Of a DNA stretch of 64,000 nucleotides, positions 40,433-58,985 are shown in pieces. The stretch lies in the NCBI GenBank assembly GCA_024762925.1, contig JANTGM010000004.1, positions 1-64,000 on the forward strand, written 5' to 3'. The notes beneath the pieces were generated by a model. The model saw only the letters and a list, made by a program, of their open reading frames with translations, made no database searches and was not told where the DNA came from. Position numbers and translations under genes: made by a program. The stretch is from Kofleriaceae bacterium. Lineage in GTDB: Bacteria > Myxococcota_A > Polyangia > Haliangiales > Haliangiaceae. Position 1 is the first letter of the stretch. Every line of letters starts with the position of its first letter.

Positions 40433-40606
40433 TCTGTTCCAACCAGCCAATATCGCAGGACTTTCACGACAGGAAGCTATGAGCGTACAGCCCACATGTA
40501 GGCGTTCGGGGGTAAATCTTGCTGTTGTGCGTGCTTGTTTGCGACAATCACTGGCGCTACTCGCAGACTCGCGTTCGCCGAGGAATCAATCTCAGCCACT
40601 GACCAC

Positions 40607-42160
<1,554 letters not shown>

Positions 42161-42258: not shown

Positions 42259-45200
42259 CTAGTTCGTAGCCTTGGCCTTGGTAACCTTGGGCACATCGAA
42301 CTCGCAGCGGCCCGTAACCGCGTTGAAGCTCTGGGATGAGCGACAGACATCGCCCTCACGAGCTGATGCGTCCCCATCGCCGGATCCTAAGCCTAGCACT
42401 TCGCATTCGCCTCCGGCCAAGAAGCCATCATCGACGAAACCAAGCTGCCCAAGGCCATTACCGTTGATGTCCGTTGTGTCTGGATCCTCACACATCTGGA
42501 TTGCATACATTCGCTGCATGACGGGTAGCGATAGAACACCAGAACCGGGCATGAAGGAGTCGCGCATTCGTCGACCTGTCTGCGTATTGATCTTCTCCCA
42601 GTATGCTGGCCTTGCCATACGACCGCCAGAGTTGATGATTCCAGAGGCTTGACGGAAGAACGGCTCACCGCTTGGATCGTCGGCGAAGAACGCTCCTGCA
42701 ACAGGATCGAACGATGGATCCCTCGCGGAGATGGTTGGGTCTCGGAAATCCATGTCCAGCCCACAGTTGGCGTCCTGTGGGTTTGGTAGACATCGCTCTT
42801 TGACGTGCAGCGTGTTGTCGAGCTTGAAGCCCAGCAAGTCGCCGGTGATGCCGTCGGAGGCGAGAATCCACTGCTGGCCAGGCATGATGCTTACAATCAC
42901 GTCTTGTGCGTCCAGCACCTCACCCGGTGGTCCGAAGACGTCGAGTAGGTTCTGAATCACAACAGGGTTCGCAGATGTTGTGATGTCAACATCGAGCACA
43001 CCATCGGTACCAACGGCGAGGTAGGCATGGCCGCTGGCGATGGAGAGTTCGTTGATATCCAGCCCGGGAAGAACGATTGCTTCGTCGGCGCCATCGGCAA
43101 TTGCAGGTGCAAGTGGCTCGAGAATGCTCATCACTGCGAGTCCGCCGGTTGTGCCCGCATAGAGCTGGAAGGCACCAACCGCGAGACCGTTGACCGTAAC
43201 AGTTGGGTCAATTTGAAAGCTCACAGTGTGCACTGGCGTTTGCGGCACAGCCAGGTCAAAGACCTCGATGGTGCCAACGTCGGTGCCAACGTATGCAATG
43301 TCGCCAGCTAAGACAATTTCTGTAGCATTTCCGCCACCGGGGATTGCCACGGTTGCAAGAATCTCTGCAGCGTCATTGCCAGCGTTCGGAGCGTCGTTGA
43401 TCTGCACAGCCGTGATGCCAGCTGCGCCATTGGCAACATAAACAAATGGGTCACTAACATCTGGTGAGATATGGGCCAATGCATTGGCGACATCAGGCAA
43501 GTTGAGAACGAAGACCTTGTTGGCATCCCCAACCGAGGGACGAGCGGCCGTTACATGGCCACGTCCAGAGATGTCACTGACAATCAAGATGCCGGCCGCA
43601 CCATTGCTGTGCGTAGAGACCATGACATCCCGAAGCGTTGGAGGCTGAGTTTGCCCTGCTGCCACTGGAGTCGCATTGAAGTTGCGAATAAGCGCTACGT
43701 CGGTGCCTGTGAAGTTGCCATCAATGCCGCCTGTGCCATCGAGATTCACCTCGACCTCAGCAGCCACTCGGTCCAGACCATTGACGATAATTCCCGGGAA
43801 GCGACTTGAGCCTGCTGCACCTGGGAACTGCCCCTCTTGCTTGTACTCGAAGAGCTCAAGACCGTTGCCACCAGCCATCATGACCCAGTCGCCAACGTAG
43901 CCATAGCGGCTTGCACCGAGGCCCATTGTCTCGCCAAGGATGTGATCGTTGCGAACACGGCCCTCTTCATCAACGAGGCTGTGACACTGCTCGCAGCTTC
44001 GAACTTCTTCTGGACGAACTGTGTGCGGCATCGTTTGGTTCATTGCCGAACCACTGGTTGCCACGTTGGAGCGACCTGTATTCGCATCGAGTTCCTGGAA
44101 TGTTGAGAACGTGATGTTGTCAACCAGAGTGCCATCACCATCGCTAATCGATGGGTGAACAATCATCGAAGAGCGGAATGGAGCGAGACGCTGGCCGTCT
44201 GCTGCGGCGGCGGTACCGAGAACGAATGGTGACCGCAAGAAGCTCAGAAGCTGGAAGTTCGTTGCTCCGGCTTGTAGGGAGTTGTTCATCCAAACCTCAT
44301 TCTCTCCGGCAACCTTCTCAATGGTGCCGTCGGGAAGTAGGCTGTTCTTAACCAAGTCACCGAGGCTGGTGTTGTCATGGCAACCCATGCAGTTGAGCAC
44401 CCAAGAGGTGTGGCAGGAGTAGCACTCGAGCTTTGCAGTCTTAAGGGGAGACGCGCCTGGTTCCCCCTCAAACTCAGACCCCGCTGTGAAGCCATTCTCG
44501 TCTGTTGGCTCAAGAGGAAGGTGGAAGCCGCTGTGCGCAAGTTCAGCACGTGGGTTGTAGCCCTCGTCCTCGGGATTGGTGGTATCGGGAATCTGCGGAA
44601 CCTCCCAAGTGAGACCTGGGGTCACGCGAGACCGCTGGATAATCTTGCCACCTTTGACTTCAAAGAAGGGCCGGCCATCCTGGTCAACTGCTGCCGACAT
44701 TAGATTGCCGCCATTCGCTCCTGAGGTCACAAGCGTCGCTTCTGCAGCTAGCGAGCCGTGGCAATCGTCGCACTCGATCTCGATGACTTCATGGTTGGTG
44801 CCATAGAGATGACCGTCGCCGTGGCTGTCTTGCAGCTGGTGACAATCGATGCAGTGCATGCCCCGCTCATAGTGAATGTCCATGAGGCGCGTTGCACCGT
44901 TTGCTCCACCATACACAAAGCGCGCTTGGCGACCATCGAAGCTGCGCTCTCTTGGCATGCGGTCGATAAGGTCAAGCTTGTTGTTGCCGTTCAAGTCCTC
45001 GTTGATGGTTGCCTCTGCGATAACTTTGCCATCCTCGTCGACAGCTTGCAGCACGACCTCTTCATCAAGACGGCCGTTGTTGTTGCAGTCCTCGGTGAAG
45101 GTCGCCGGTGCACAACCACCAGCACCAGCAATGATGCCCTGGTCAAAGAGCTGCTTGTCTCGCTCAATTGCGAGTTCGATAATCTCAAGTCCCTCTTCTG

Positions 45201-46998
45201 GCTCAATGAGTGTTGTCACGCCCCCAACCGTCTCTTCGCGAACGAGAGAGTCGAGGATGCGAACTTGATCGCCATCGGCCGAGATGAATTCGATGGGTGC
45301 TCGCCTTGCGAGGTCGTCGCGCTGCTCTTCTTCCGTCGTTCCCGTGTACGCAAAATTCACGCGAGTCACAAATGCGTGGCACAAGCCGCAGGTATCTGTG
45401 TCAACCCGCGTTGTCAGCTCGTGATTTGCCGAGTAGTGACGCTGCTGATCTTTGTCGGCAACGTTGGAGAATTCGCGTTCCGCAGTAGTGACAGCCATGC
45501 CTACAAGTCGGCGCTCACCGCCAATCTCTTGGATATCCTGGTTCTTCGCGTCAAATTCACGGTGGACTGTGGTTGGGTCGCGAACCTCCTCAAAAATGGT
45601 CTCGCCGTTCTCGATCTTTGCGACCTTCTGTGGATTGCGAGCTCCATCAAAGTTGTACTTCATGTGACAGCTTGTGCAGCCCATGGAGTGACCGCGCCCA
45701 AATGGGTTGTTGGTCTTGATGATGTCGACATTGGGTTTGATGGACTGCCCAAAGAGGAACGTCTGGTTCCGAACAGAGCCGGGGAAGTTGAGGGGGAAGT
45801 ACGCGCGGAATCCTCTCAGAATCGTGTCCACAGGGTCTGGAATGCCTGGTAGCAACTCGTCATTGAGTGGTGGCTGCATGGAAGGCATCGGGGCTGCCGG
45901 ATCCTTGAGGGGCTTTCCGCCCCATTCGGGGAAACGCGAGTCCTTGCCACCAACGTGCGCAACCGTCGTGTCGGCCTCAACCCCCTCTTGCCTCACGAGC
46001 GTGCCCTGCGTTGCTTCGAATGCGGGCAGGTCTGCCTCATCGATATTGGATGCGACGTTGCCGGGGGCACCAGCAACAGCGTTCGGATCGTTCACCTCAG
46101 CAAGCGCTTCTAGGCACTCAGAATCAAAGAATGGTTGCGTGCGTCCCGTTGGATCCTCAAGCGATGCATCGTTGACAATGCAACCGTCGATGCCCGTGTA
46201 GTCGAAGCTGTAGCCAAAACCACCACGGCGAGGATCGGGGGCATCTTCAAGCAAGTCACGCCCTTCCTGGAATGCCGCTCGCCAGCTCTCGTTGCCGTAG
46301 TAGGCGCCGTTGATAACGGCGGAGTTGTTGGTCATCACAGATCGGCGATTGCTCTCGACCACGCTCTGGTGACAGCCGCCAGCGGCATTGCCATTGTTGG
46401 CAGAACTCGAGGCACCACAACCAATCGTGGCAACACGCAAGTCACCCGGGTTCAGCCATCGTGTGTAGTTGAGATCGCGGTTGTACTCAGAGTCGATAAA
46501 TTGTCCAACGCCCTCACCTTGAAGGCCAGGTTCAGCAATCTCACCAAAATCAACCAGGACATCTTGGCCCAGACCGTTTACATCAAACTCGGGCCCCTCA
46601 TCGACAATGCCATCACCGTCATCGTCCATGCCGTTGCCGTAGAAGAATCGCGCAAGGCCTGGCTTGGGCTTAACGTGCGCCTCTGCGAGCAAGTCCGGAT
46701 CGCTGTAGATGTCTTCATCTTCGAAGGCGTTATCGGGAATCTCTACTTGGTCGTTGCCACCATGGCAGTCGACACAACGCAGCTTGTAGGTACCGTGAAC
46801 CTGCTTAGACTCCAGCCCCGCGTGACAGTTGATGCATGTCCCATCAAATTCGAAGTCGTCATTAACGACCGTCTCCTTGCCCTTGATACAGGCGGTAGTT
46901 CCGAGTGCCAGCACGAGTCCAACGAGAAGGAGTGAAAGACTAAGAGCCCCTTGCTGTCCTCGCTGAAAGCCAATGTTGTGAGTTTTGCGTTCGTTCAT
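42259..46998 (-). CDS. giant decaheme-type lipoprotein with beta-propeller
   Basis: 1579 residues. Lipobox ALGTTAC with Cys 37 as lipidation site. Nine CXXCH motifs (about residues 55, 75, 441, 537, 716, 743, 858, 870, 1000) and one CX14CH (C194...C209-H210). Ca-binding-like loops (MDDDGDGIVDEG at about 124-135, CNNNGRLDEE, NGNNKLD). Residues about 1130-1395 form LVIVD/beta-propeller-like repeats (GAAGILIVSDI, YVANGAAGITAVQI, AYVGTDVGTIEVFDL). It is the last gene of the six-gene operon; GAGGAGG lies ten bases before the ATG. A surface-exposed terminal oxidoreductase or electron donor to an outside partner is likely by analogy with OmcB/MtrC-type proteins, but it matches none of them closely. 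Confidence 0.88.
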   Translation of the reverse strand: MNERKTHNIGFQRGQQGALSLSLLLVGLVLALGTTACIKGKETVVNDDFEFDGTCINCHAGLESKQVHGTYKLRCVDCHGGNDQVEIPDNAFEDEDIYSDPDLLAEAHVKPKPGLARFFYGNGMDDDGDGIVDEGPEFDVNGLGQDVLVDFGEIAEPGLQGEGVGQFIDSEYNRDLNYTRWLNPGDLRVATIGCGASSSANNGNAAGGCHQSVVESNRRSVMTNNSAVINGAYYGNESWRAAFQEGRDLLEDAPDPRRGGFGYSFDYTGIDGCIVNDASLEDPTGRTQPFFDSECLEALAEVNDPNAVAGAPGNVASNIDEADLPAFEATQGTLVRQEGVEADTTVAHVGGKDSRFPEWGGKPLKDPAAPMPSMQPPLNDELLPGIPDPVDTILRGFRAYFPLNFPGSVRNQTFLFGQSIKPNVDIIKTNNPFGRGHSMGCTSCHMKYNFDGARNPQKVAKIENGETIFEEVRDPTTVHREFDAKNQDIQEIGGERRLVGMAVTTAEREFSNVADKDQQRHYSANHELTTRVDTDTCGLCHAFVTRVNFAYTGTTEEEQRDDLARRAPIEFISADGDQVRILDSLVREETVGGVTTLIEPEEGLEIIELAIERDKQLFDQGIIAGAGGCAPATFTEDCNNNGRLDEEVVLQAVDEDGKVIAEATINEDLNGNNKLDLIDRMPRERSFDGRQARFVYGGANGATRLMDIHYERGMHCIDCHQLQDSHGDGHLYGTNHEVIEIECDDCHGSLAAEATLVTSGANGGNLMSAAVDQDGRPFFEVKGGKIIQRSRVTPGLTWEVPQIPDTTNPEDEGYNPRAELAHSGFHLPLEPTDENGFTAGSEFEGEPGASPLKTAKLECYSCHTSWVLNCMGCHDNTSLGDLVKNSLLPDGTIEKVAGENEVWMNNSLQAGATNFQLLSFLRSPFVLGTAAAADGQRLAPFRSSMIVHPSISDGDGTLVDNITFSTFQELDANTGRSNVATSGSAMNQTMPHTVRPEEVRSCEQCHSLVDEEGRVRNDHILGETMGLGASRYGYVGDWVMMAGGNGLELFEYKQEGQFPGAAGSSRFPGIIVNGLDRVAAEVEVNLDGTGGIDGNFTGTDVALIRNFNATPVAAGQTQPPTLRDVMVSTHSNGAAGILIVSDISGRGHVTAARPSVGDANKVFVLNLPDVANALAHISPDVSDPFVYVANGAAGITAVQINDAPNAGNDAAEILATVAIPGGGNATEIVLAGDIAYVGTDVGTIEVFDLAVPQTPVHTVSFQIDPTVTVNGLAVGAFQLYAGTTGGLAVMSILEPLAPAIADGADEAIVLPGLDINELSIASGHAYLAVGTDGVLDVDITTSANPVVIQNLLDVFGPPGEVLDAQDVIVSIMPGQQWILASDGITGDLLGFKLDNTLHVKERCLPNPQDANCGLDMDFRDPTISARDPSFDPVAGAFFADDPSGEPFFRQASGIINSGGRMARPAYWEKINTQTGRRMRDSFMPGSGVLSLPVMQRMYAIQMCEDPDTTDINGNGLGQLGFVDDGFLAGGECEVLGLGSGDGDASAREGDVCRSSQSFNAVTGRCEFDVPKVTKAKATN

Positions 46999-47016
46999 GA
47001 TGGTGATGCCTCCTCG

Positions 47017-48192
47017 TTAGTTCACGAGGTCGTCGAGTGAAGGTTTCTTGCGGCGGCGCTTGCGCGGCTTGGAATCGTCGTCGTCGACGAGAGAGTCTAG
47101 GTTGGAGCTGCTAGAGCTGCTCTTGCCCGTAAGGCTGTTAAGAATCGACTTGGACGAGTGGCAGAGCGAGCACTTGCCCGTGCCCTTGCTCTCGTTCAAC
47201 GCAGACCGATGACAGCCACTGACGCCACACTTGTTGTGGGCTCGGTCCCTGCTGTTGTCCATGATTGGCGCTTGCTTGACTTCGAGAAGACTCTGGTAGC
47301 CGTACCCCTCGTAGCGCCTGAGAGAAAACATGAAGTGGCAGTGGCCACACTGCAATGCCTCGCCGTCTTTCTTGGTTCGATGCCCCTCGCGCTCGTGCTC
47401 GAAGCATGGAGTCGCAGCTTTGCGCTTCGTTTTGAGGGCGGCATACCGAACGGAGTTGCAGCTTCGCACGTCTGTGCTGAAGCGACGCTGCTTGAAATAG
47501 GCCTTTGGATCGCCAGAGGCATGGCACTTGGTACAAGTGCCCATCGCGAACTCGGGTTCCATCGTGCGGCTCTCCTTGGCAGCGCCATCGTGGCAGAGAA
47601 CGCACTCGCTATGCCCAGGCCCCTCAGTAGCCAGGGCAAACGTTGTGGAATCCACAACATGGCAGGTTCGACAGCCCCCGCCGTTCGCCGCTGCAGCCTT
47701 GGTGTGGGCCAAGTGGTTCATTTCCACATAGTGGCCTGGCTTAGAATTATTCTTATATAGGCTTACGGCCTTTGCCTTGACGAATGGACTGGGCGCGCGC
47801 CCCGCCCCATCATCGTGACAACCAAGACAAAAGCCCGCCGCTTTTCGGTAGCGCTCGGGCGCATCCTTGCGTGTCCGCTTGCCTACGCTCAGAAAATCGG
47901 ATGCATGACAACCAGCTGAAAGGCAGGGCTGGTGTCCATGACTGGCAGGCCTGGTAAGAGCGCCCTGGGCATCATTGCCATGACACTGCTCGCAGGCTGC
48001 GATATCTACAGGATCGTCCAAATACGCATGTGCGGAATGGTCGAATTTGAGTGGCACCACGGTGCCCTCAGGGCTTTTGTCCTCTGGGTTCTGGCCAGGC
48101 GCAAGCGACACCACAGCTCCCAATACGAGAGTCGTCGTTGCAGCGCCGGTTGCAAGAACGCTCAGCCTCACGGCTTGGCAACTCCGTGGCAC
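47017..48192 (-). CDS. nonaheme c-type cytochrome with Ser/Asp/Arg tail
   Basis: 391 residues. Signal-like N-terminus (LSVLATGAATTTLVLGAVVSLAPG). Haem sites: seven CXXCH (CEQCH, CLGCH, CRTCH, CVLCH, CTKCH, CGHCH, CSLCH) and two CX4CH (CLSAGCH, CGVSGCH). Many free His in HxxH-type spacing (FDHSAH) could be distal ligands, as in cytochrome c7/c3 relatives. The last 45 residues are odd: a Ser run, a DDDD run, then RKRRRKK. This charged tail is absent from its two sister cytochromes. It overlaps the upstream gene by 25 bp. Periplasmic electron carrier. Confidence 0.87.
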   Translation of the reverse strand: MPRSCQAVRLSVLATGAATTTLVLGAVVSLAPGQNPEDKSPEGTVVPLKFDHSAHAYLDDPVDIAACEQCHGNDAQGALTRPASHGHQPCLSAGCHASDFLSVGKRTRKDAPERYRKAAGFCLGCHDDGAGRAPSPFVKAKAVSLYKNNSKPGHYVEMNHLAHTKAAAANGGGCRTCHVVDSTTFALATEGPGHSECVLCHDGAAKESRTMEPEFAMGTCTKCHASGDPKAYFKQRRFSTDVRSCNSVRYAALKTKRKAATPCFEHEREGHRTKKDGEALQCGHCHFMFSLRRYEGYGYQSLLEVKQAPIMDNSRDRAHNKCGVSGCHRSALNESKGTGKCSLCHSSKSILNSLTGKSSSSSSNLDSLVDDDDSKPRKRRRKKPSLDDLVN

Positions 48193-49031
48193 TTCACGCA
48201 GCCGAACCCGGTCGTTTTGAAGGCGTTAACTCCATCATGGCAAGCATCGCAGCTTTGCATCGTTGGTCGGGGGATTTCCGACAAGGTGTTCGCATTCTCT
48301 ACGCCGCTATGACACAGCTTACAGCCAGGCGTTTCTCGTGACTTTTCTCGAGGATCGCGATCATGATCATCATGACGAAATCGAGCTCGTACGGCGTATT
48401 TTGATTGATTCTTTAGCCGCTCTGCCTGGTAGCCAAGCTTGTGACAGTCGCCACAATCGCTCATGAGCGGACGAAGCCCCCCTTGGTGGCAACTCCCACA
48501 GACCGCGTGTGCTTCCGGCTTCTCGCCTTCCACATAGACGTTGCCATGGCAGCTCTGACACTTAACGCCACCCTTTGCAGCTTTGTCACTCTGGTGTGTC
48601 TTGTGGGAAATCTCGCCACCAAACTCAGATGTTGGCAAGTCGCGAATCCGCGCAATCTGTTTCACCCAAGGCTCGTTGGTGTCATGGCAGACGACACAAA
48701 TCTTGGGCTCTCGGCTCATGTACTCCGAGGCGTGGCAGCCAGAGGTGTTGCAGGGCTGGTGATTCTTGCCTCGGGTGACAGGCTCAATTTCGAAGCCCTT
48801 GATGCCGTGACACTGTTGGCAGTCCTCAACCGCAACACCTTTGCTCTGATGCAGCTTGTGCCCAAATCGAACCATCTCAGCACTTGGAGCAGCGGGTTCG
48901 GCAGCAGCAGCCTTTTCTTGTGCATAGCTATCATCGCTTGTGCCAAAGACGAGTGCTGCGATGACCGCCAAACCAGCGGCCACTAGGCCACGCCATACGC
49001 GGGGAACGGAGATCATGGATAGACGAGACAT
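48168..49031 (-). CDS. nonaheme c-type cytochrome
   Basis: 287 residues. Signal peptide with a cleavage-like SYAQ-E. Eight CXXCH (CQQCH, CVVCH, CQSCH, CGSCH, CGDCH, CKLCH, CDACH, CVKCH) and one CX4CH (CNTSGCH). The CX4CH segment HQPCNTSGCHASEY aligns with HQPCLSAGCHASDF of the 391-residue protein, so the two are paralogues. His-rich FGHKLH and ISHKTH pieces supply distal ligands. A soluble periplasmic carrier between inner and outer membrane is the simplest reading. Contiguous with the gene before it. Confidence 0.88.
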   Translation of the reverse strand: MSRLSMISVPRVWRGLVAAGLAVIAALVFGTSDDSYAQEKAAAAEPAAPSAEMVRFGHKLHQSKGVAVEDCQQCHGIKGFEIEPVTRGKNHQPCNTSGCHASEYMSREPKICVVCHDTNEPWVKQIARIRDLPTSEFGGEISHKTHQSDKAAKGGVKCQSCHGNVYVEGEKPEAHAVCGSCHQGGLRPLMSDCGDCHKLGYQAERLKNQSKYAVRARFRHDDHDRDPREKSRETPGCKLCHSGVENANTLSEIPRPTMQSCDACHDGVNAFKTTGFGCVKCHGVAKP

Positions 49032-49874
49032 TTAGTTGCCTCCTTGCGTGTGACACTTGGTACAGGTGGTGCCGATCGCGTTAAACGCCTTCTTGCCGTC
49101 GTGACATGACTTCTGGCAACTCTGCATGGTTGGCAATGGAACTGTCGTATCGGCTTCGGCTGATTTGATGTTTTCGTGGCAGGTGAGGCAAGCCCGGCCC
49201 GCAGTGCCAACTCGGTCCACGGCAGCATGGGCTTGATGGTCAAACTTGCCTTTCACGGCAAATGGATTGGCATTGCGTTTTGCAACGACAGCTTGTCCCG
49301 TTCCTTTGGAGTGACAACCGTCGCACGACTCCTTGATGCGTGGTGTCACGCCTCGTGCGTGGCAGCCAGAACACAGAGCGTGCCCAGCGGAGAGATTGCC
49401 TTGTGTGGGAGCGCCAGCACCAAAGCTGCCATGACAGCTCTCGCATTGCTCACCACTCTGGCTTGGCCGAATGTGCTTGCGGTGAGAATAGTTCGCAGAG
49501 AACTCACTGAGCCCTGCAGCTGGTGCGACATAGCCACTCGGCGTGCACTCGGACTTAAATGTCACGTGGCAGGTGAGGCAAACTTTGCCCTCCTTCTGCT
49601 TCAGTGTTCCACAGCTCGAACTGAACTTGTGACAGGAGAAACAACGAGCATGCTCCTTTTTTCCCTTTTGCTGCCACTCGCCATCGGCAGTTGCTGCATG
49701 ACACCGAGCGCACTCAACCTTGACGGTGCTCGCATGCTTCTCATGGCTGAAGAGGCGGTCCTGAGGGACAGCGGTTTGCATGCCCTTCTGCCCGATTGCC
49801 GGAACGGAAATGGCGGCGATTGCCAGAACAATGAGGCCAATGCCCCAAACTTGCGTGCGTGTTCGTACGCTCAT
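49032..49874 (-). CDS. nonaheme c-type cytochrome
   Basis: 280 residues. N-terminal signal (GLIVLAIAAISVPAIGQ). Eight CXXCH (CARCH, CFSCH, CLTCH, CESCH, CSGCH, CDGCH, CLTCH, CTKCH) and one CX3CH (CQKSCH), the last being a rare spacing. FSHEKHAS and YSHRKH hold distal His. The C-terminal half (PTMQSC...CHDGKKAFNAIGTTCTKCH) is clearly related to that of the 287-residue cytochrome (PTMQSCDACHDGVNAFKTTGFGCVKCH), showing duplication within the operon. One base separates it from the porin gene. Confidence 0.88.
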   Translation of the reverse strand: MSVRTRTQVWGIGLIVLAIAAISVPAIGQKGMQTAVPQDRLFSHEKHASTVKVECARCHAATADGEWQQKGKKEHARCFSCHKFSSSCGTLKQKEGKVCLTCHVTFKSECTPSGYVAPAAGLSEFSANYSHRKHIRPSQSGEQCESCHGSFGAGAPTQGNLSAGHALCSGCHARGVTPRIKESCDGCHSKGTGQAVVAKRNANPFAVKGKFDHQAHAAVDRVGTAGRACLTCHENIKSAEADTTVPLPTMQSCQKSCHDGKKAFNAIGTTCTKCHTQGGN

Positions 49875-49875
49875 C

Positions 49876-51576
49876 TTAGAAATTAGCCTCCATAAGAACC
49901 CGCAGGCTCACCATCGCGTCGATATCTGCCGCAATGCTCTGCGACGGTTGAGCCACCTCTCCCGTCGTGCGCAAGCGAACTAGTGATGTCGGCCAGTAGC
50001 CAACATCGAAGCGCACACCACCGCGGCCGTCGTTGTCGAGAACCGCGTAGGGTGACTCGATGTCCAATACCCGCACATAGCCTCCAAAAGCGGCGGATGC
50101 TTTCTTCTTGCCAAAGTTGTAGCGAGCCTCGCCCGACAGTTCGTGTAGTTGTTTTGTTCCGGTGCCGGTGGTGTCGTCAAAAGCCGAACCTTCGAGATTG
50201 CCTGTGGCGTCCAAGTCATGTGCTCGGAACTTGTACTGCCCAGTTGTGGTGAGGCGCTTGCCAATCAGCGCACTACCCGCGATCCCAAACTCTTGAAAGG
50301 GCCGAGAGAATGCATCCGATTGCTCGGCGTTCTTGACGAGTCGATTGCGATAGAAGGCATAACCTTCAAAGTTACGCGTGAGCTGATAATTGGCGCGCGC
50401 CCCAATCAATGTGGAGTTCTGTGGTGTACCAATCGCAAGCCCGAGCTCTTGCCCAACATTGACAACATCTATGGGTGATGCGCCGATGTAGTCAAAAGCG
50501 AGTTCCCGTGCAAAGTTCTTTTCGACATCGGCAATGACAGTAAGGTCATCACCAATACTCTGGCGAACCTGCCCCCCAAGCCGTCCAATACCAGAGCTAT
50601 TGTCTCCATCGGTGCCATCATCGATGAAGCGTCCACGGAAGTAGAGTCTGGTGTTTCGCGCGACTCGAGCACGGCTATTGGCCTCGATGAAGATGGGTGC
50701 AGCCGCGTCATCCCCACCAGCGTCGTAACGCATGAAGTCAACGTTGAGATCAGCTGGGTAGCCAAAAATCTCTTCGCCCCGCAACTTCACGCCCGCTCCG
50801 GCAAGAAGGCCTGGGTCATCGTTGAAGAAGAGGGAAACTCGCTGGCCAAAGAAGGCCGAGACCTCGGCCATTCGGTGGTCATAGGCCGCGGTGATGCCAT
50901 CGAAGTTTGCTACGAAACGATTTGAGCCATAGCGGTACTGGCGACCGGCGCGAAGATAGATTGAGTCGAGTACCCCGCCCTTCTCTCCGCCGAGGCCATC
51001 AAGTTCTGCGTACCCTGCCCGAATGAGCAAAGCCTGACTCTCATCACCGTCGTATACGTAGTTCATCGCAGTGAACTGACCACCGCCTGCATCGAGCTGA
51101 AAGCGCGAGAGAAAGTAGCTGTTGAGCGAAGGCATCAAGACACCACGTGTGCCGATAATGGCGTCGCCAAGCAAGTAGTTCCGATTGTCTGCGTAGGCGT
51201 TGCCTTGCGCATCCACAACATCGCCAGGTGCAAATCCCGTCTGGGCGACGTTGCCACTCAGCTGGCTGACATCAAGCCCATATCCGACGTTGGTCTTGAA
51301 TATGACACGCTCTTTGATGTCTCGGTACTGCGTTGGAATTGCCCTGTACTCGAGTCGAGACGTCTTTGCCTTTGCTGCAGGGGCTTCCTTCTTGGAAACG
51401 GAAGCATCTTCGGCAGCAGCACTGCGCATGTTGAGCGTTGACAACTCTCGCTGTGGAAGCTGCTTGAGACGGAGATCCATGGGGCTCTCGGCCAACGCAA
51501 CACTGGTACTACCCACAACAGCCGCACCAGTAACCACACCAGCAAGGACTCTACGTATTTTTCTTAGACGGCTCAT
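49876..51576 (-). CDS. outer-membrane beta-barrel, porin-cytochrome conduit type
   Basis: 566 residues from ATG 51576, which overlaps the stop of the 15-heme gene (ATGA). Signal peptide ending SVALA-ES. After a Lys/Ala-rich plug-like segment the chain shows amphipathic strands throughout (YFLSRFQLDAGGG, SIYLRAGRQYRYG, NTRLYFRGRFIDDG, FEGYAFYRNRLV) and ends with Phe (MEANF), the C-terminal signature recognised by the Bam machinery. It would form the sheath through which a multiheme protein crosses the outer membrane, as in MtrB or OmbB. Sequence similarity to those is not obvious. Confidence 0.82.
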   Translation of the reverse strand: MSRLRKIRRVLAGVVTGAAVVGSTSVALAESPMDLRLKQLPQRELSTLNMRSAAAEDASVSKKEAPAAKAKTSRLEYRAIPTQYRDIKERVIFKTNVGYGLDVSQLSGNVAQTGFAPGDVVDAQGNAYADNRNYLLGDAIIGTRGVLMPSLNSYFLSRFQLDAGGGQFTAMNYVYDGDESQALLIRAGYAELDGLGGEKGGVLDSIYLRAGRQYRYGSNRFVANFDGITAAYDHRMAEVSAFFGQRVSLFFNDDPGLLAGAGVKLRGEEIFGYPADLNVDFMRYDAGGDDAAAPIFIEANSRARVARNTRLYFRGRFIDDGTDGDNSSGIGRLGGQVRQSIGDDLTVIADVEKNFARELAFDYIGASPIDVVNVGQELGLAIGTPQNSTLIGARANYQLTRNFEGYAFYRNRLVKNAEQSDAFSRPFQEFGIAGSALIGKRLTTTGQYKFRAHDLDATGNLEGSAFDDTTGTGTKQLHELSGEARYNFGKKKASAAFGGYVRVLDIESPYAVLDNDGRGGVRFDVGYWPTSLVRLRTTGEVAQPSQSIAADIDAMVSLRVLMEANF

Positions 51577-52910
51577 CGCACCCCCCGGTGACAACGCGAA
51601 CATGTGTCTTCGTATGTGTGACAGGCCATGCAACTTGTGAGGCCAAAGCGTGCACTCTCAGCATGCCCACCGAGGCGGAACTCACCAAGAGGCTGGTGCG
51701 AGCGCGGAGGGATTGAGTGACAAGCAGTGCAGTAGTCTGCTTGGTGGCAGGTTGCACACCGATCGCGGTTCACAGATGCTTCGCGACCGTGATTCTCGTT
51801 GCGCCAACCGAGCATGTGGTCCTTCGGACGCATCACCTCGTGGCATTGGAAACACGAGTCACGAGAGTTGCCGCTCAAGTTCTCGTGACAGTATTTGCAG
51901 TTGGCATTCTCGTCGGCCGCCTGCTCGGCGTGATTGGCGCGGAACTCCAAGTTGTGATTCTCGGGAAGCGTCGAACCAGTGAGGTGAGTTCGCGGTGTAT
52001 TGCCATCGACCATGCCCTCGTGGCAAACTTTGCACTGGGCGATTCGAACCCGCTCAGGGGTTCTCTTTGGGTCTTGATGACACTTTGCGCATTCCTGCAT
52101 TTGCGGAACGCTGACATCCTTGATCTCTGTCGAGAGGGCCACGTCTTCGTGACAGGATTCACAGCCAATGCTGGCACCAGCGCGGTCTTGGACGTGATCT
52201 CCGTGCGAGAAAATTAGGCCCTCGGTGATCATGATTCGGCCTTGGGCGATATCCACTTTGCTCTGCTTGTGGCAACTCGCGCAGTCGGACATGCTCATGA
52301 CTTTCTTCGCCTTGCCCTCATGACAGCGAGCACATGCGTCGTGGCGAGGCAGGAGTGGATCGCCTGTCTTCTCATCTCGGGAATGACAGTCATCGCATCC
52401 AAGATGGAAGCCAACTGCCGATTCCATGCCCCCTTTGTCGAGGTGATCGCGATGAGAAAAGTTCGAAGCGAGCACTTTCTTGCTGCCACGCGATGGGAAG
52501 ACCTGCATCTTCGTTGCACCTTCGGCGGTGATATCGACGCTGACGTGGCAATTCTTACAAAACGCCCCAGGAGGCTTGTAGAACTCTTCTTTGTGGCAAT
52601 CGTCGCAAGGCGCATGATCGTTGCCCCCTGGGAATGGAGCAAGCCCCTTCCGCACATCCTCTTGTGGGTGACAATCCTTGCACTCGAGCCCACGATCCTT
52701 GTAGCTGGTAATGCGCTTGTCATTTCCGGTGTGCAGTTCGTGGGGAAAGCGATTGCTATCTGCGGCAATCACCTCGGCACTTGCCTTGGTCGAAGACCGA
52801 GATCGACCACTACAGGCGGCGCTCAACGAGAACGCGAGGACGAAAACAATTGGTAAGCCAAGACCAACTCTCCCCCCCCGCAAACCATCACTCAATACTC
52901 GGCGACTCAT
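51573..52910 (-). CDS. 15-heme lipoprotein cytochrome
   Basis: 445 residues from ATG 52910 (MSRRVLSDG). Lipobox LSAAC. Fifteen CXXCH motifs, all of standard spacing: CKDCH, CDDCH, CKNCH, CDDCH, CARCH, CASCH, CESCH, CAKCH, CKVCH, CKYCH, CFQCH, CATCH, CTACH, CMACH, CSRCH. Distal-ligand patterns FPHELH, FSHRDH, FSHGDH. It is the first gene of the operon and coupled to the barrel gene. It could be the outer-membrane wire (MtrA/OmaB role) that fits inside the barrel, or a periplasmic-side lipoprotein; the sequence does not decide. Confidence 0.9.
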   Translation of the reverse strand: MSRRVLSDGLRGGRVGLGLPIVFVLAFSLSAACSGRSRSSTKASAEVIAADSNRFPHELHTGNDKRITSYKDRGLECKDCHPQEDVRKGLAPFPGGNDHAPCDDCHKEEFYKPPGAFCKNCHVSVDITAEGATKMQVFPSRGSKKVLASNFSHRDHLDKGGMESAVGFHLGCDDCHSRDEKTGDPLLPRHDACARCHEGKAKKVMSMSDCASCHKQSKVDIAQGRIMITEGLIFSHGDHVQDRAGASIGCESCHEDVALSTEIKDVSVPQMQECAKCHQDPKRTPERVRIAQCKVCHEGMVDGNTPRTHLTGSTLPENHNLEFRANHAEQAADENANCKYCHENLSGNSRDSCFQCHEVMRPKDHMLGWRNENHGREASVNRDRCATCHQADYCTACHSIPPRSHQPLGEFRLGGHAESARFGLTSCMACHTYEDTCSRCHRGVR

Positions 52911-52946
52911 GGTGCGATGCCAGGATAACCACAAAGTTGCCTTTAC

Positions 52947-53017: not shown

Positions 53018-55255
53018 ATGGCCAATTCCACGCATGAAACCGGAGCAACGGCTCCCCATGTTGCCCTGCTCAGTCAGGTGCCATTTCTCTCCGACGCCAG
53101 TTCCGAGGTTCTGAAGAACCTGGCTGAGAACACCCTGGTAAGGCGATATACGGCCTATGAGCCGATATCCCAGCAAGAGGAATTCGCTCACTCCATGTTC
53201 ATCGTGGTCTCGGGGAGCGTCTCGCTTCACGCCGTTCGCAGTGATGGAGTTTCGATTCCCCTGGGCACCCTCACACGCCCTGGCGAGTTTTTCGGTGAGG
53301 AAGCTTTGCTTGGAAGGGGAATCCGCTTGGCCACGGCGGTGGCAGATACAGAGACGGTGCTCTTGGAGGTGGAGCAACGGAAATTTGCCCTGCTCGCCCG
53401 CAAAACCAGCGGAGCTTCCGAGGCGCTTGAGTACACCTACCACCAACGCTCGATCATCACGTTCATTCAGATGCACCCGTATCTGTCGCAGCTTCCTCCA
53501 GGTCAGGCCAGTCGGCTCATCGCCGGCGCTACCATGGCGACGTATCAGAAGGACGAGCTGCCTGTGCGCCAAGGCGATGCAGCGACACAAGTCATGCTGA
53601 TTGCCGATGGTGTGCTCAAGGCGCTTCGAACCACAGATGATGGACGGCTCTCGGTATTGGCCTACTTCAATAGTGGCGATGTGGTTGGCTCCCACGATCC
53701 GCCACAGCGGCCCTACAGCCTGACGGCTCTTGGCAAGGCCGAGGTCATCTTCATTCCAAAGGCAGCGTTCGACGAACTTGAGTTCACCGCACCACAAGTC
53801 TACGCCCGCTTTGGCAAGGACCGGATGTCGCGCACAGGCATCATGGAAAATGCCGGCCAGACGATCTTCGGATCCGCAGAGGCGCTCTTTCAAGAGGGCA
53901 TGGAAGTTGAGTCCTTGCTCATCATCGACCTGGACCGATGCGTTCGATGTGGCAATTGCGTTCGGGCATGCCACACCCGGCATGAGTACACCCGACTTGA
54001 CCGACGTGGGCCGATCTTTCGCCGGCGAAAATCCCTCTCCTCCAAGGAGCACGAGCACCTTCTGATTCCTTCATCGTGTCGCCACTGTCGTGACCCTGAG
54101 TGCATGATTGGCTGTCCTACGGGGGCTATCGCGCGCCACCCAAATGGCGAAGTCGAAATCAATGAGAACTGCGTCGGTTGCGATAACTGCGCTCGCAAGT
54201 GCCCCTACGGGAACATCACCATGCGGCCAATCCCGGAGGCCGAGCAGAAAGACAACATCGTCAAGCAGGCAATCAAGTGCAACCTGTGCCGTGGCCACAA
54301 ATACTCCAATTGTGTGCATGAGTGTCCACGTGGTGCCCTGCTCCGTGTGAACCCTTTGGAGCACTTTGATGAACTCGCGCTTGTCCTTGCTGCAGATCAA
54401 GATCGAGAGGGACAAGGAGCTTCAACGCGCCGCAAGCTTCCAAAGCGCTCAAGTCGCCCCATGACAACGTTGGTCGCCTCGGTGCTCTTACTCCTGCTCT
54501 TCTCGGGCGGCATTACCGCTGCGCACTTCATGGCCCCGGATTCCTACTCGGCCTCGAGTCCGCTTGGCCTTGGATTTGGCGTTGTGGGTGCTGTATGCAT
54601 TGTATTGGCCCTCTTGCTCGGCGCTCGGAAAAAGCTCAGCAACCACGGTCTGGGACGGCTCGAGAGCTGGACACAGTTACACATGACGTTTGGCGGTATT
54701 GGTTTTGTCGCCGCGATGGCTCATGCTGATTACGGAGTTGCCGGCATCGGCACCACATTGCTAATGCTTCTCTTCGCGCTCGAAATCATAACTGGCGTGA
54801 TAGGACAGCTGCTCTATTCAAACGTGCCGAAGATTCTGACCCACATCGAGAAGTCTGGGAATTCAAAGCTCATTGAAGACCTCTACGAGGAGCGCAACGA
54901 GCTCCGAGAGGGCTTGCGACAAATTCTGATCAAGCAACCATCTGAGGTTCGCGCCTTTGCATCGACCTTGCGACGGCTTGCAGGCTCTCCACGGCGCAGG
55001 TACAGCCGCCGCTTCGACGCCGCCCAACACCAAACGTTCCTACTCGCCAACCTGCCGTTGCAGGGGCATTTGGAGCACCATCGCCCTGTGATTGAGAGGG
55101 TACTCACCGACCATTGCAAAATCTCGGATACCGTGGCGCAGATCAAGCTGCACCGAGTTCTCAAGCAATGGCTCTTTCTTCACCTAGCCACCTCTGCAGC
55201 TCTCGTCACCGTACTTATCCTCCACGTTTTCACCATGCTTCCGATCGTCTGGTAG
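53018..55255 (+). CDS. cNMP-binding x2 / four-cluster ferredoxin / b-type membrane fusion
   Basis: 745 residues. cNMP domain 1 at about 15-130 keeps the phosphate cassette GEFFGEEALLGRGIRLATA (E95, R103). cNMP domain 2 at about 150-260 has a degenerate cassette (GDVVGSHDPPQRPYS). A DmsB/NrfC-like region at 305-445 holds four Cys groups (CVRCGNCVRAC, CRHCRDPECMIGCP, CVGCDNCARKCP, CNLCRGHKYSNCVHECP) for four [4Fe-4S] clusters. Then about five membrane helices (482-600 and 716-740) with His 555, 569, 722 and 736, spaced as haem b ligands (H722-x13-H736). It probably links cytoplasmic donor and quinone or periplasmic haems, gated by a cyclic nucleotide. 19 bp before the FHA fusion gene. Confidence 0.88.
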   Translation: MANSTHETGATAPHVALLSQVPFLSDASSEVLKNLAENTLVRRYTAYEPISQQEEFAHSMFIVVSGSVSLHAVRSDGVSIPLGTLTRPGEFFGEEALLGRGIRLATAVADTETVLLEVEQRKFALLARKTSGASEALEYTYHQRSIITFIQMHPYLSQLPPGQASRLIAGATMATYQKDELPVRQGDAATQVMLIADGVLKALRTTDDGRLSVLAYFNSGDVVGSHDPPQRPYSLTALGKAEVIFIPKAAFDELEFTAPQVYARFGKDRMSRTGIMENAGQTIFGSAEALFQEGMEVESLLIIDLDRCVRCGNCVRACHTRHEYTRLDRRGPIFRRRKSLSSKEHEHLLIPSSCRHCRDPECMIGCPTGAIARHPNGEVEINENCVGCDNCARKCPYGNITMRPIPEAEQKDNIVKQAIKCNLCRGHKYSNCVHECPRGALLRVNPLEHFDELALVLAADQDREGQGASTRRKLPKRSSRPMTTLVASVLLLLLFSGGITAAHFMAPDSYSASSPLGLGFGVVGAVCIVLALLLGARKKLSNHGLGRLESWTQLHMTFGGIGFVAAMAHADYGVAGIGTTLLMLLFALEIITGVIGQLLYSNVPKILTHIEKSGNSKLIEDLYEERNELREGLRQILIKQPSEVRAFASTLRRLAGSPRRRYSRRFDAAQHQTFLLANLPLQGHLEHHRPVIERVLTDHCKISDTVAQIKLHRVLKQWLFLHLATSAALVTVLILHVFTMLPIVW

Positions 55256-55274: not shown

Positions 55275-58200
55275 ATGTCTCGCTTCATGCGCTTGCTCTT
55301 TCACCGTGGCCCCTGGGCTGGCCGCGAGCTTGTGACCGCAGCACCGATGCTCCGCATAGGTAGCGACCCCTCGAAGAACGACCTTGCGCTGGATGACCCC
55401 GAACTTGCGCAAGCACATTGCATCGTGCAGCGGTCTTCCCGCGGAGAGTACATTCTGGAAGACCTCAGCCAGATGAGCGCATCGCTGTGCATCAACGGGC
55501 AGATCCCGCAAGATGACGCCGCGATCTATCTCTGCCCTGGAGATCGATTCGAACTTGGCGGCTCCGAGATCGAAGTTGCCGAGGCAAGCCCGAGACTCCT
55601 GCAAATCTCTGGTGCACACGCTGGGCGCGAGTTTCCTCTAAGCGAAGAGCTTCTCAGTTTCGGCCGGGCTCCCGACAATGTCATTGCAATCGACGACTCG
55701 GAGGCATCGGTCTATCACGCTGTCATTCGAAGCACAGCTCCGGGTTTTTCCCTAGAAGACCAACGCTCCACAAATGGCACGTTCGTCAATGGCAAGAGAG
55801 TCTCGTCTCACATTCTTGGGGATGGCGATATCGTTCGTCTCGGCCAGCAGGAGTTCCTCTTTGCCGCAGTGCAGAGTCCACTTGAGCCGGCAGATGATAT
55901 CGCGCCAGGCCAGCGCCGCCTCGACGATGTTCGGGCCTACTTCCAGATCCTCACAGGCACCCAACTCAATACACGGATCGAACTCGGATCGCTTCCGCTG
56001 CTGATCGGAACGGGGCTCGACTGCGACTTCGTCCTACACGACTCAGCGGTTGCCCCGGCACATGCTCGGGTGGTGCCAAACAACGACCTCTACTACCTTC
56101 AAGACCTCGGTTCAGGGGACGCGACGCTGGTCAACGGGCGGCGAGTTACAGGAGAACCTCGACTACTGCAACCCGGAGATCTTCTTACTTTTGGCTCTAC
56201 AACGGCCGAGTACCACGTAAAGGGCGGTGTTGTTAGCGAGACTGGCATATCGATGGCAATGACGTCGGTCATCGCGGCGGGTGCCTACGACCTAACGCCA
56301 CAAGCCAAATACGTCGTCAATGGGCATGTTGAGGTCTGCGATGAGATTCTCATTGGCAGCTCGCCAGGATGTCACCTCCAACTCGATAGCGATGGGATCA
56401 GCCCAATGCACTGCCGCATTCGCTGGTCAGGTCAGTTCACCATTGAGGACACCTCGGTCTCGGGAACGTTCTTAGGCGACAAGCGCATCGTCAAAGAATC
56501 GCTACAAGACGGCTTGGTGATCCGCATCGGCCAGGAGCTTGTCGATGTGCGCATCGCCGGCGAGCGATGCAGCTTGGACCAAATCGATCGAGCCACGGCC
56601 GCTGCCGCGATTGAGGTCGCACATGAAACCTCGTTCGACCTCTCGAAGGCACAGCTCGATCCCGCCAACATGGGTGGCGCTATCACGAGCGCTTACAAGA
56701 CAGTTTACAAGCTCAACTACGCGGACGTCGACTCATTAGTCCGTGAGCGCAAAGAGAAGTTCCGCCAAGGGGCCCCAGCCTGGCGTCCCAGCACGGACAT
56801 TCGCAGACCGGCGACGGCTCGAATCAGTGTTATTCTTACCATCCTCGCCTCAATCGGACTTGCGGCCTTCGCATACAGCAGGAACCACATCACAGAAGTC
56901 CTGGTGAATCATCCGCTCAGCGAGTCCCATTCTACAGCTCTCTTTGTCCAACAAGCCGAGCAACATGGCCTAAGGGCAGACTGCCGAGCCTGCCACAGCT
57001 TGGGTAACGGACTCTCCGACGATCTCTGTCTCACCTGTCACGAGGGGCTCAGCGCAGGCATGCGAGAGGAGCACCGCTCGACAAAGAAGGCCTTGGCTCC
57101 GGGACGTAGGCTGCCAAATTCAAGCTGTGCCGATTGCCATCGCGAGCACAATGCAACGCCACGATTTGTCATGGGAACTCCGTCGCTGCTCGGGGCTGGA
57201 CGTGGCTGTGCAGAACAAGCTTGTCACCCAAATCAGCATGAAGGCGACTTCGACAAGGACTCGGCGCCCATCGTGAACGCTGCCGAACTGCGACTGGCCG
57301 CAGGACCGATTCCCAATTTCGACACTCCCCAGGAGGAGTTTCACATTGCACATGCAAGCGTTGAGCATGAAGGCAAGAGCATTGCGATTGCCTGCACAAC
57401 CTGCCATGCAAAAGCCGATTCTCAGACCGGGGAGCTTGTTGAGCGCGAGCCTGGCAGAGCGTGTTTTGGATGCCATAGCGGTGGAGGTTCACTGCAACAG
57501 GAGTGTCTCTCCTGTCACGGCCTCGAACACGGCAATTCCCATGGCTTTGTGCGAGCCGCGACTGATGACCCTGCAATGGCAACAGTCACGCCAAAAACCA
57601 GTGCCCACCACTCACTCTTCTGGGCCTTCCTCATAATGGTCGCGCTCTTTGTTCCACTCGTTTTCTTTGGCCTTGTGCTGCGTTTGCGAGCTCGTCGAAC
57701 TGCAACACAGGTCGTCGCGCGGCTTCATGAGTTCCCTGTGGAGGCCGTCAAGCACCTGGTGCACTCGATCAATATGGACAAGTGTGTTGGCTGCCATGCG
57801 TGTGTGCAAGCCTGTCCAACCAGCGTGCTCGAACTCGTCAATCACAAGTCGCAAATCGTCAACTTCGATGCGTGCATTCAGTGTCGTGCGTGCGAAGCCT
57901 CCTGTGCCTTTGGTGCGCTCGTCATGCATGAAGCGGATAAGCCTCCGCCATCAATTAAGATGCCCGATCTTGACGCGGGACTGCAGACTCCTGTGCCAGG
58001 TCTCTACCTCATTGGACAAGCTGCGGGCATAGCTCAGGTAAAAAACGCGAGCAATATGGGTCGCACCGTCATCGACCGAGCTATGCAAGCTGGCCTCAGT
58101 CCCGGCGAAGGACAACGGCTGGGCGCACAAGTGGATGTGGTAATTGTCGGTAGTGGCCCCGCAGGGCTAAGTGCAGCTCTGAGCTGCCAGCACCACGGTT

Positions 58201-58985
58201 TGCGCGCACTCGTACTCGAGAAACAGCCCGACTTTGCCTGGACCATTCGCAACTACTTCCACAAAGGTAAAGAAGTCATGGCCGAGCCACATGAAGTTCA
58301 GCTCGCTGGTTTGCTGCCTGTTTGGGATACGGACCGCGAAGGCCTACTCGCGGCCTGGAAGAACACCCTCGAAACCGCCAAGCTTGAGATTCACTACCGC
58401 CAAGACGTCACAAACATCGAACACAACGGCCAGCACTTTGCTGTGAGTGTTTGCGACGCAGCTGGCAATCCAACCGGCACCTGGACCGCAGCCCGAGTTG
58501 TGATTGCTGTGGGGGGCTTGGGCCATCCGCGCAAGCTTGGCTGCCCAGGAGAAGAACTCGACAAGGTTCGCTCGGCCCTTGTCGACCCAGACGAGTTTCA
58601 TGGGCGCGATGTGCTTGTTGTTGGCGGCACGGACTCGGCTATTGAAGTTGCGCTTGCGCTCGCAGCCACAAACCGAGTCCAGTTTTCGTGTCGTGGTGAG
58701 AAGTTCGATAGAGCCAAACAAAAGAACCGCGACCGCATCGAAGAAGCCTTTCACTCGGGCTTGATCGCTCCACACTTTGTCACTCAAGTGGTTAACGTGA
58801 CCGAGCAAACGGTGACGCTGGAGAACCGCAAAGACGGCACACAGGTGGAGTTTGCCAACGACCTCATCTTCGCATTGATTGGTGGTATTCCCCCGAACAA
58901 GTGGCTTGAGTCGCTTGGGGTGAACTACGTTGAAAAGCCGCACAGCTGGTCACCGCCACCAACTGACGAAATTCTTCGAGGTTAG
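55275..58985 (+). CDS. FHA x4 / heptaheme / 2x[4Fe-4S] / FAD-NAD(P) oxidoreductase fusion
   Basis: 1236 residues. Four FHA domains: about 15-100 (degenerate), 115-197 (canonical FGRAPDN...STNGTFVNG), 232-316 and 347-427. TM1 at 514-534. Periplasmic domain with seven haem sites: CRACH 570, CLTCH 585, CADCH 618, CAEQACH 645 (CX4CH), CTTCH 707, CFGCH 730, CLSCH 744. TM2 at about 780-804. Two [4Fe-4S] motifs (CVGCHACVQACP 837, CIQCRACEASCAFG 867). FAD motif VVIVGSGPAGLS at 955-966 and NAD(P) motif VLVVGGTDSAIE at 1113-1124. Topology is self-consistent: FHA and flavin inside, haems outside. It would take electrons from NAD(P)H to periplasmic haems, with FHA domains sensing phosphothreonine. Confidence 0.9.
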   Translation: MSRFMRLLFHRGPWAGRELVTAAPMLRIGSDPSKNDLALDDPELAQAHCIVQRSSRGEYILEDLSQMSASLCINGQIPQDDAAIYLCPGDRFELGGSEIEVAEASPRLLQISGAHAGREFPLSEELLSFGRAPDNVIAIDDSEASVYHAVIRSTAPGFSLEDQRSTNGTFVNGKRVSSHILGDGDIVRLGQQEFLFAAVQSPLEPADDIAPGQRRLDDVRAYFQILTGTQLNTRIELGSLPLLIGTGLDCDFVLHDSAVAPAHARVVPNNDLYYLQDLGSGDATLVNGRRVTGEPRLLQPGDLLTFGSTTAEYHVKGGVVSETGISMAMTSVIAAGAYDLTPQAKYVVNGHVEVCDEILIGSSPGCHLQLDSDGISPMHCRIRWSGQFTIEDTSVSGTFLGDKRIVKESLQDGLVIRIGQELVDVRIAGERCSLDQIDRATAAAAIEVAHETSFDLSKAQLDPANMGGAITSAYKTVYKLNYADVDSLVRERKEKFRQGAPAWRPSTDIRRPATARISVILTILASIGLAAFAYSRNHITEVLVNHPLSESHSTALFVQQAEQHGLRADCRACHSLGNGLSDDLCLTCHEGLSAGMREEHRSTKKALAPGRRLPNSSCADCHREHNATPRFVMGTPSLLGAGRGCAEQACHPNQHEGDFDKDSAPIVNAAELRLAAGPIPNFDTPQEEFHIAHASVEHEGKSIAIACTTCHAKADSQTGELVEREPGRACFGCHSGGGSLQQECLSCHGLEHGNSHGFVRAATDDPAMATVTPKTSAHHSLFWAFLIMVALFVPLVFFGLVLRLRARRTATQVVARLHEFPVEAVKHLVHSINMDKCVGCHACVQACPTSVLELVNHKSQIVNFDACIQCRACEASCAFGALVMHEADKPPPSIKMPDLDAGLQTPVPGLYLIGQAAGIAQVKNASNMGRTVIDRAMQAGLSPGEGQRLGAQVDVVIVGSGPAGLSAALSCQHHGLRALVLEKQPDFAWTIRNYFHKGKEVMAEPHEVQLAGLLPVWDTDREGLLAAWKNTLETAKLEIHYRQDVTNIEHNGQHFAVSVCDAAGNPTGTWTAARVVIAVGGLGHPRKLGCPGEELDKVRSALVDPDEFHGRDVLVVGGTDSAIEVALALAATNRVQFSCRGEKFDRAKQKNRDRIEEAFHSGLIAPHFVTQVVNVTEQTVTLENRKDGTQVEFANDLIFALIGGIPPNKWLESLGVNYVEKPHSWSPPPTDEILRG

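Follow-up and report, generated by a model that had tools for sequence, protein, structure and literature searches.

The window analysed here is a stretch of 64,000 nucleotides from a Kofleriaceae bacterium (contig JANTGM010000004.1, positions 1 to 64,000), and we will focus on one of its genes, at 55275-58985 on the forward strand, together with the genes that surround it. This gene encodes a protein in which FHA domains, haem motifs, iron-sulphur (Fe-S) motifs and a flavin domain are joined in a single chain, hereafter the FHA protein, and the gene that ends 19 bp upstream of it (53018-55255) encodes a second membrane protein that we will call its partner. The features of the two products, including transmembrane (TM) helices and cyclic nucleotide-binding (cNMP) domains, are as follows.

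55275-58985, plus strand: FHA protein, with four FHA domains, TM helix, heptahaem domain, TM helix, two [4Fe-4S] and an FAD/NAD(P) domain; ATG start, 1236 amino acids
55353-55559, plus strand: FHA1, phosphothreonine site degenerate in the window protein (GS, AxxH)
55656-55844, plus strand: FHA2, canonical phosphothreonine-binding residues (GR..SxxH..STNG..NG)
56001-56195, plus strand: FHA3, degenerate in the window protein
56349-56531, plus strand: FHA4, partly degenerate (S and H kept; GR and SxNG not)
56700-56702, plus strand: Thr476, in the linker from FHA4 to TM helix 1; Thr in 15 of 16 aligned homologues
56823-56879, plus strand: TM helix 1, residues 517-535, hydrophobic segment, conserved His absent
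56895-57623, plus strand: periplasmic heptahaem domain, six CxxCH and one CX4CH
57624-57680, plus strand: TM helix 2, residues 784-802, hydrophobic segment, conserved His absent
57783-57905, plus strand: two [4Fe-4S] motifs, CxxCxxCxxxC at 837 and 867, eight Cys within residues 837-877
57957-58109, plus strand: segment PGLYLIGQAAG..VKNASNMGR, residues 895-945, C-terminal FAD element of the TrxR/YpdA fold
58125-58982, plus strand: FAD/NAD(P) domain with a YpdA/TrxR-like ferredoxin-NADP reductase fold, without the YpdA active-site Cys
53018-55255, plus strand: partner, 745 amino acids, two cNMP-binding domains, four [4Fe-4S] and a four-TM cytochrome b-like domain
54680-55225, plus strand: span of the four invariant His of the partner (H555, H569, H722, H736), in pairs spaced 14 residues

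All the parts that a first-pass annotation of this DNA had named in the FHA protein were recovered, the FHA, TM, haem, Fe-S and flavin matches all lying in the one open reading frame. The FHA region gives four Pfam matches, each above the 20.7-bit cut-off (E 5e-59 over the whole protein). The haem motifs of the CxxCH type are found at residues 570, 585, 618, 707, 730 and 744, and the CX4CH at 645; the CVGCH at 837, which looks like an eighth CxxCH, forms part of the first Fe-S motif and is not a haem site. When the protein was shuffled 20,000 times, the CxxCH count never exceeded 2. The topology that had been proposed holds as well, with the hydrophobic segments at 517-535 and 784-802 and positive-inside flanks, and it is the positive-inside reading of these flanks that assigns the heptahaem domain to the periplasmic side.

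This architecture is conserved well beyond the window. Our class-level searches covered the relatives of the bacterium and 290 genomes of its class, and the same domain order was found within the class in a paralogue of the own genome (G000, contig C26), in G002 (two proteins), G011, G158, G116, G081 and G162. It was also found in other classes of the phylum (G436, G515, G421, G501 and G476), to which can be added two out-of-class homologues, one truncated by the end of a contig (G490) and one of a diverged form (G460). Identity to the window protein goes down to roughly 31-40% across the haem, Fe-S and flavin part, and all seven haem sites are present in the 15 aligned haem-bearing sequences. 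Because several relatives carry CxxCH at the position of the CX4CH of the window protein, the latter is very probably a real haem site. Bis-His haems require distal His ligands, and candidates for these are seen at 552, 600, 625, 655, 690, 693 and 752, each kept in 13 to 15 of the 15 sequences. A scan of genome contigs with the single window protein gave elsewhere only short matches in the Fe-S region, and a plasmid search returned the flavin part only, plus the Fe-S part in Emticicia. In four out-of-class homologues (L106, L107, L108 and L109), the first Fe-S motif is without its second Cys (CxxxxxCxxxCP), as in seven-iron ferredoxins.

The flavin domain matches Pyr_redox_3 at residues 954-1216 (E 1.2e-32) and has the two-dinucleotide-binding-domain fold (TIGR04018, E 5.6e-39; Foldseek match to 7a76, E 2.6e-23), its structure model reaching a predicted local distance difference test (pLDDT) of 91. 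In both sequence and structure, it is closest to YpdA, TrxR and the ferredoxin-NADP reductases. It fails the equivalog model of the YpdA bacillithiol disulphide reductase (133.8 bits for a cut-off of 339.9), and its GSGPAG is without the Cys. The C-terminal FAD element, PGxYxxG(D/E/Q)..G..VKNAxNxG, precedes the GxGxxG motif, while in the usual order it comes after. When the usual order was restored in silico, the match to the TrxR model reached 292 instead of 246 of its 300 positions and the match to 7jyp rose from 38 to 53 bits; the restored order scored about 7 bits above a control in which the segment was shuffled, a modest gain. The displaced motif recurs throughout the 41 aligned sequences, and the flavin domain (57957-58982) is likely to be circularly permuted, in common with all the Fe-S-flavin homologues examined. 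In two genomes of the genus, a glutamate dehydrogenase gene lies directly downstream of the gene for the second-copy FHA protein (L022:6481-7887, recognised with Pfam, and L025:1-1101, recognised by sequence similarity), and it may be a link to NAD(P)H.

How the electrons would cross the membrane is where the first-pass annotation has to be corrected, since it had seen a complete wire from NAD(P)H to haem in one polypeptide. Electrons cannot jump directly from a cytoplasmic cluster to a periplasmic haem over the width of a bare lipid bilayer, and it is unlikely that the FHA protein forms the complete transmembrane wire by itself, because the homologue alignment shows a conserved His in neither of its TM helices and the only conserved membrane His are those of the partner. 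Indeed, across 13 homologues of the partner, down to 20% identity, the 16 Cys of the Fe-S part are invariant and H555/H569 and H722/H736 are the only invariant His of the membrane domain. The single-polypeptide wire was thus dropped for two subunits, and the four His are predicted, as likely ligands, to hold two stacked bis-His b haems. Of the two cNMP domains, the first keeps the usual ligand residues, in an FGExALLxxGxRxAT-like cassette. In G011, a frame of 2038 amino acids that could pass for a fusion of the two genes is a shadow frame, and the genes are separate.

The two proteins are also inherited together. The FHA protein is found in 8 of the 290 class genomes (G000, G001, G002, G011, G081, G116, G158 and G162), and the partner (E<=1e-75) in exactly the same eight. 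Such a co-occurrence would have a chance of about 1e-15 if the genomes were independent; they are related, the eight representing three genera, so that its true weight is smaller. The partner was found in 13 of the 14 FHA genomes searched, the exception being G436, whose FHA gene stands at the start of a contig, and in most loci it adjoins the gene of the FHA protein.

On the other strand, an operon of cytochromes diverges from the pair, and a kinase gene is convergent with it.

42259-52934, minus strand: divergent operon (15-haem cytochrome, predicted barrel, three 9-haem cytochromes, 9-haem protein of 1579 amino acids)
51573-52934, minus strand: 15-haem cytochrome c, lipobox-like start, divergently transcribed
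49876-51633, minus strand: predicted outer-membrane beta-barrel (porin-like), 585 amino acids, C-terminal Phe
49032-49874, minus strand: 9-haem cytochrome c, probably periplasmic
48168-49031, minus strand: 9-haem cytochrome c, probably periplasmic
47017-48192, minus strand: 9-haem cytochrome c
42259-46998, minus strand: 9-haem protein of 1579 amino acids, candidate surface terminal cytochrome, lipobox-like start
40535-42160, plus strand: Hanks-type Ser/Thr kinase, convergent with the cytochrome operon, possible regulator

The layout of this operon is that of a predicted porin-cytochrome conduit, for which the barrel nature and the surface location are deduced from protein size, the C-terminal Phe, the lipobox-like start and the gene order. 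The 585-residue barrel has no family match in the Pfam and NCBIfam scans, neither to MtrB/PioB nor to the Geobacter Pcc porins, and the 1579-residue protein gives only a weak match to a cytochrome c3 model. Orthologues of the 15-haem, barrel and 1579-residue proteins share the cluster with the pair in G011, G081 and G162, and the barrel occurs in seven of the eight genomes that have the pair, and weakly in one other. Outside the class, the FHA gene of G436 is directly followed by the 15-haem and barrel genes, and these are partly present beside the pair in G421 and G501. The own genome encodes cytochrome c assembly proteins. Near other members of the Fe-S-flavin family, giant cytochromes with at least 30 haem motifs are encoded (L042:6495-8822, L043:6950-11083 and L047:9807-12581).

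From these data, we propose an inner-membrane NAD(P)H:cytochrome c oxidoreductase of two subunits, to which the FHA protein would contribute the catalytic part and the periplasmic haems. The enzyme would feed the outer-membrane conduit and receive phosphothreonine and cyclic-nucleotide inputs, and we give this proposal a probability of about 0.6. The architecture, ligand residues, conservation, co-occurrence and gene order are read directly from the sequences, and from them we infer the formation of a complex, the order and direction of the electrons, the loading of the cofactors and both regulatory inputs. NAD(P)H would reduce the FAD, and the electrons would then pass to the two [4Fe-4S] of the same chain and on to the four [4Fe-4S] of the partner, whose two b haems would carry them across the membrane to the seven c haems of the FHA protein. 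From there, they would reach the 15-haem cytochrome, the porin-like barrel and the surface 9-haem protein. The net flow would most likely be outward, as a disposal of electrons to an external acceptor. The NAD(P)H domain suggests a donor other than quinol, a quinone site in the partner being possible. Gating would come from cyclic nucleotides at the partner and from phosphothreonine at FHA2, which perhaps reads Thr476 of the same chain; a tight control would be useful because an outward flow without a pump spends membrane potential. The fuller picture, a path from NAD(P)H to the outside whose inner-membrane gate is switched post-translationally by phosphothreonine (through the FHA array and Ser/Thr kinases) and by a cyclic nucleotide (through the partner), is more tentative, and we would place it somewhat short of even odds.

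As to the phosphothreonine input, FHA2 is the sole FHA domain of the window protein with the binding residues GR, S, H and N, which FHA1, FHA3 and FHA4 fail to show. The close relatives have a canonical FHA2 too, and at least one fully canonical FHA domain is found in 11 of the 15 sequences whose N-terminus is present. The linker between FHA4 and the first TM helix is variable apart from a few residues, among them Thr476. There is a precedent in GarA and OdhI, whose FHA domain recognises a phosphothreonine located elsewhere in the same chain, and Thr476 is therefore a candidate phospho-acceptor to be read in cis. In total, the own genome (G000, 6.8 Mb) has 66 FHA domain matches.

A sister operon without FHA domains provides the strongest indirect support for a control by kinases. 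In this sister form (TM - haems - TM - Fe-S - FAD), found in the own genome (contig C16) and in many others, the gene stands beside that of a partner of the cNMP-FeS-cytochrome b type. A Hanks-type kinase gene is present on the same strand as the sister pair in 11 loci, namely L046:1255-11012 (G000, contig C16), L080 to L086, L089, L092 and L095, and therefore the link between a kinase and the electron-transfer pair is found independently of the FHA domains. A VWA protein is encoded downstream in L046. In a tree of the flavin domains, the nine sister-type domains form one clade (100/100), and the FHA types lie around a third type, which has no haems and looks like a later loss, the root being uncertain. 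Haem-less TM-FeS-FAD proteins (L028:7200-9503, L035:9251-12475 and similar ones) carry at the C-terminus a long tail that appears to be disordered and in which (E/D)(A/P)TR motifs recur, possible kinase targets. A comparable EEPTR occurs close to the N-terminus of the kinase at 40535-42160.

Several observations weigh against the proposed oxidoreductase and its inputs. In G158, G116, G081 and G162, none of the FHA domains is fully canonical, so phosphothreonine binding is not universal, and a conserved link with the kinase at 40535-42160 is unsupported, as its gene is not beside the cluster in G011 or G162. The control of electron entry by Ser/Thr kinases, which the first-pass annotation had raised, is thus plausible with respect to the canonical FHA2 and to the kinases of the 11 sister loci, but it loses ground on these four homologues and on the lost adjacency. 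The second copy in the own genome (C26) has a 9-haem cytochrome gene next to it and no porin. In the homologue of G001 (L027:1634-4834, G001:C643), the haem domain is cleanly absent, leaving FHA - TM - TM - FeS - FAD in a single frame. Finally, the structure model of partner residues 291-745 puts the four His in helices with a moderate pLDDT of 74, and a Foldseek search with it found relatives for the Fe-S part only, with no solved cytochrome b for the membrane helices. A joint loss of the haem domain and the partner in G001 was ruled out, as fragments of the partner remain elsewhere in that genome.

The alternative that survives best keeps the same electron path and gives the FHA array the role of a scaffold without gating, which would hold the complex in place or put it together, kinases or further FHA proteins being examples of what might take part. 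The four homologues without a fully canonical site would fit it, as would the fact that FHA sites degenerate differently from clade to clade, but the canonical domain kept in most sequences and the nearly invariant Thr next to the array make it rather unlikely. The system could also be a redox sensor, in which the redox state of the periplasmic haems or of NAD(P)H would reshape the FHA array so that it recruits or releases phosphorylated proteins or kinases. Having one canonical FHA domain of four agrees with this, and several sister loci encode a kinase-like domain fused via a TM helix to a multihaem domain (a five-haem one among them), which resembles redox sensing by a kinase; nevertheless, the full cofactor set, the two b haems predicted for the partner and the dedicated conduit exceed the needs of a sensor, and we find this quite doubtful. 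We are just as doubtful of an inward flow, in which extracellular donors would reduce NAD(P)+ via the complex: porin-cytochrome conduits are able to run both ways (PMC10734462, PMC6295460), but on general bioenergetic grounds most donors would have to reduce NAD(P)+ uphill, and we see no subunit for energy coupling. The merging of separate genes by an assembly join or a frameshift, which the first-pass annotation had named as a finding that would refute its view, has no point in its favour and a negligible probability, as the same fusion is found in full-length homologues from many independent assemblies and more than one class, and the GC content at third codon positions is even along the frame (0.56-0.67).

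The proposed oxidoreductase would thus be a conserved and co-inherited pair that draws electrons from NAD(P)H instead of quinols and carries two kinds of signalling domain. If true, this would mean a eukaryote-like signalling acting directly on extracellular electron transfer, and it makes testable the idea that outward electron flow is controlled directly by phosphorylation and cyclic nucleotides, beyond transcription alone. It also draws attention to a phylum with an abundance of Ser/Thr kinases as one worth searching, and the sister operon with its kinases points the same way.

To our knowledge, signalling domains are absent from the inner-membrane proteins that have been described as entry points for extracellular electron transfer. 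Among these, CbcL combines multihaem and membrane b-type parts. We found no description of an FHA-multihaem-FeS-flavin protein in the open-licence literature, a description elsewhere being possible, and to that extent the earlier statement that no protein with such an architecture had been described has held. The joining of FHA to haems is already catalogued by name, in cluster 403 of the Gallionellaceae, a 'Forkhead-associated protein' with 10 haem motifs in 27 genomes of iron oxidisers (PMC10734462, Table 1); apart from this table entry, nothing relevant on FHA with multihaem proteins was found in the literature. The cluster 403 protein is alike in its FHA name and its haems, and its domain order and its TM, Fe-S and flavin parts are not described in that paper, where it is only named.

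The window system can be compared with known systems part by part. The flavin domain shares the two-domain FAD/NAD(P) fold of YpdA (Bdr) and the TrxR-like ferredoxin-NADP reductases, from which it differs in being permuted and fused to two [4Fe-4S], and in showing GPAG where YpdA has the Cys of its GPCG. For the FHA region, one of the best PDB matches is GarA, but the FHA switch proteins GarA and OdhI are soluble metabolic regulators without redox parts. The partner has the 16-Cys four-cluster fold of the DMSO-reductase-type subunits (HycB, FdnH and NrfC type), to which, in its case, two cNMP domains are joined, as well as a membrane domain bearing the two pairs of His. The divergent operon resembles the porin-cytochrome (Mtr/Mto/Pcc) conduits in encoding together multihaem cytochromes, a barrel-like protein and a candidate exposed multihaem lipoprotein, and it differs from them in a barrel without a match to a described family and in a 15-haem core cytochrome. 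As for the entry points themselves, no more than three families were known in 2018, CymA, CbcL/MtrH/MtoC and ImcH, and their described role is that of a quinol oxidase or quinone reductase (PMC6295460); the Pfam and NCBIfam scans named none of them, no direct comparison being made. What the window system shares with them is the presence of inner-membrane c-haem proteins that pass electrons to periplasmic or outer-membrane cytochromes, and to this it adds a flavin NAD(P)H domain, six [4Fe-4S], and FHA and cNMP domains.

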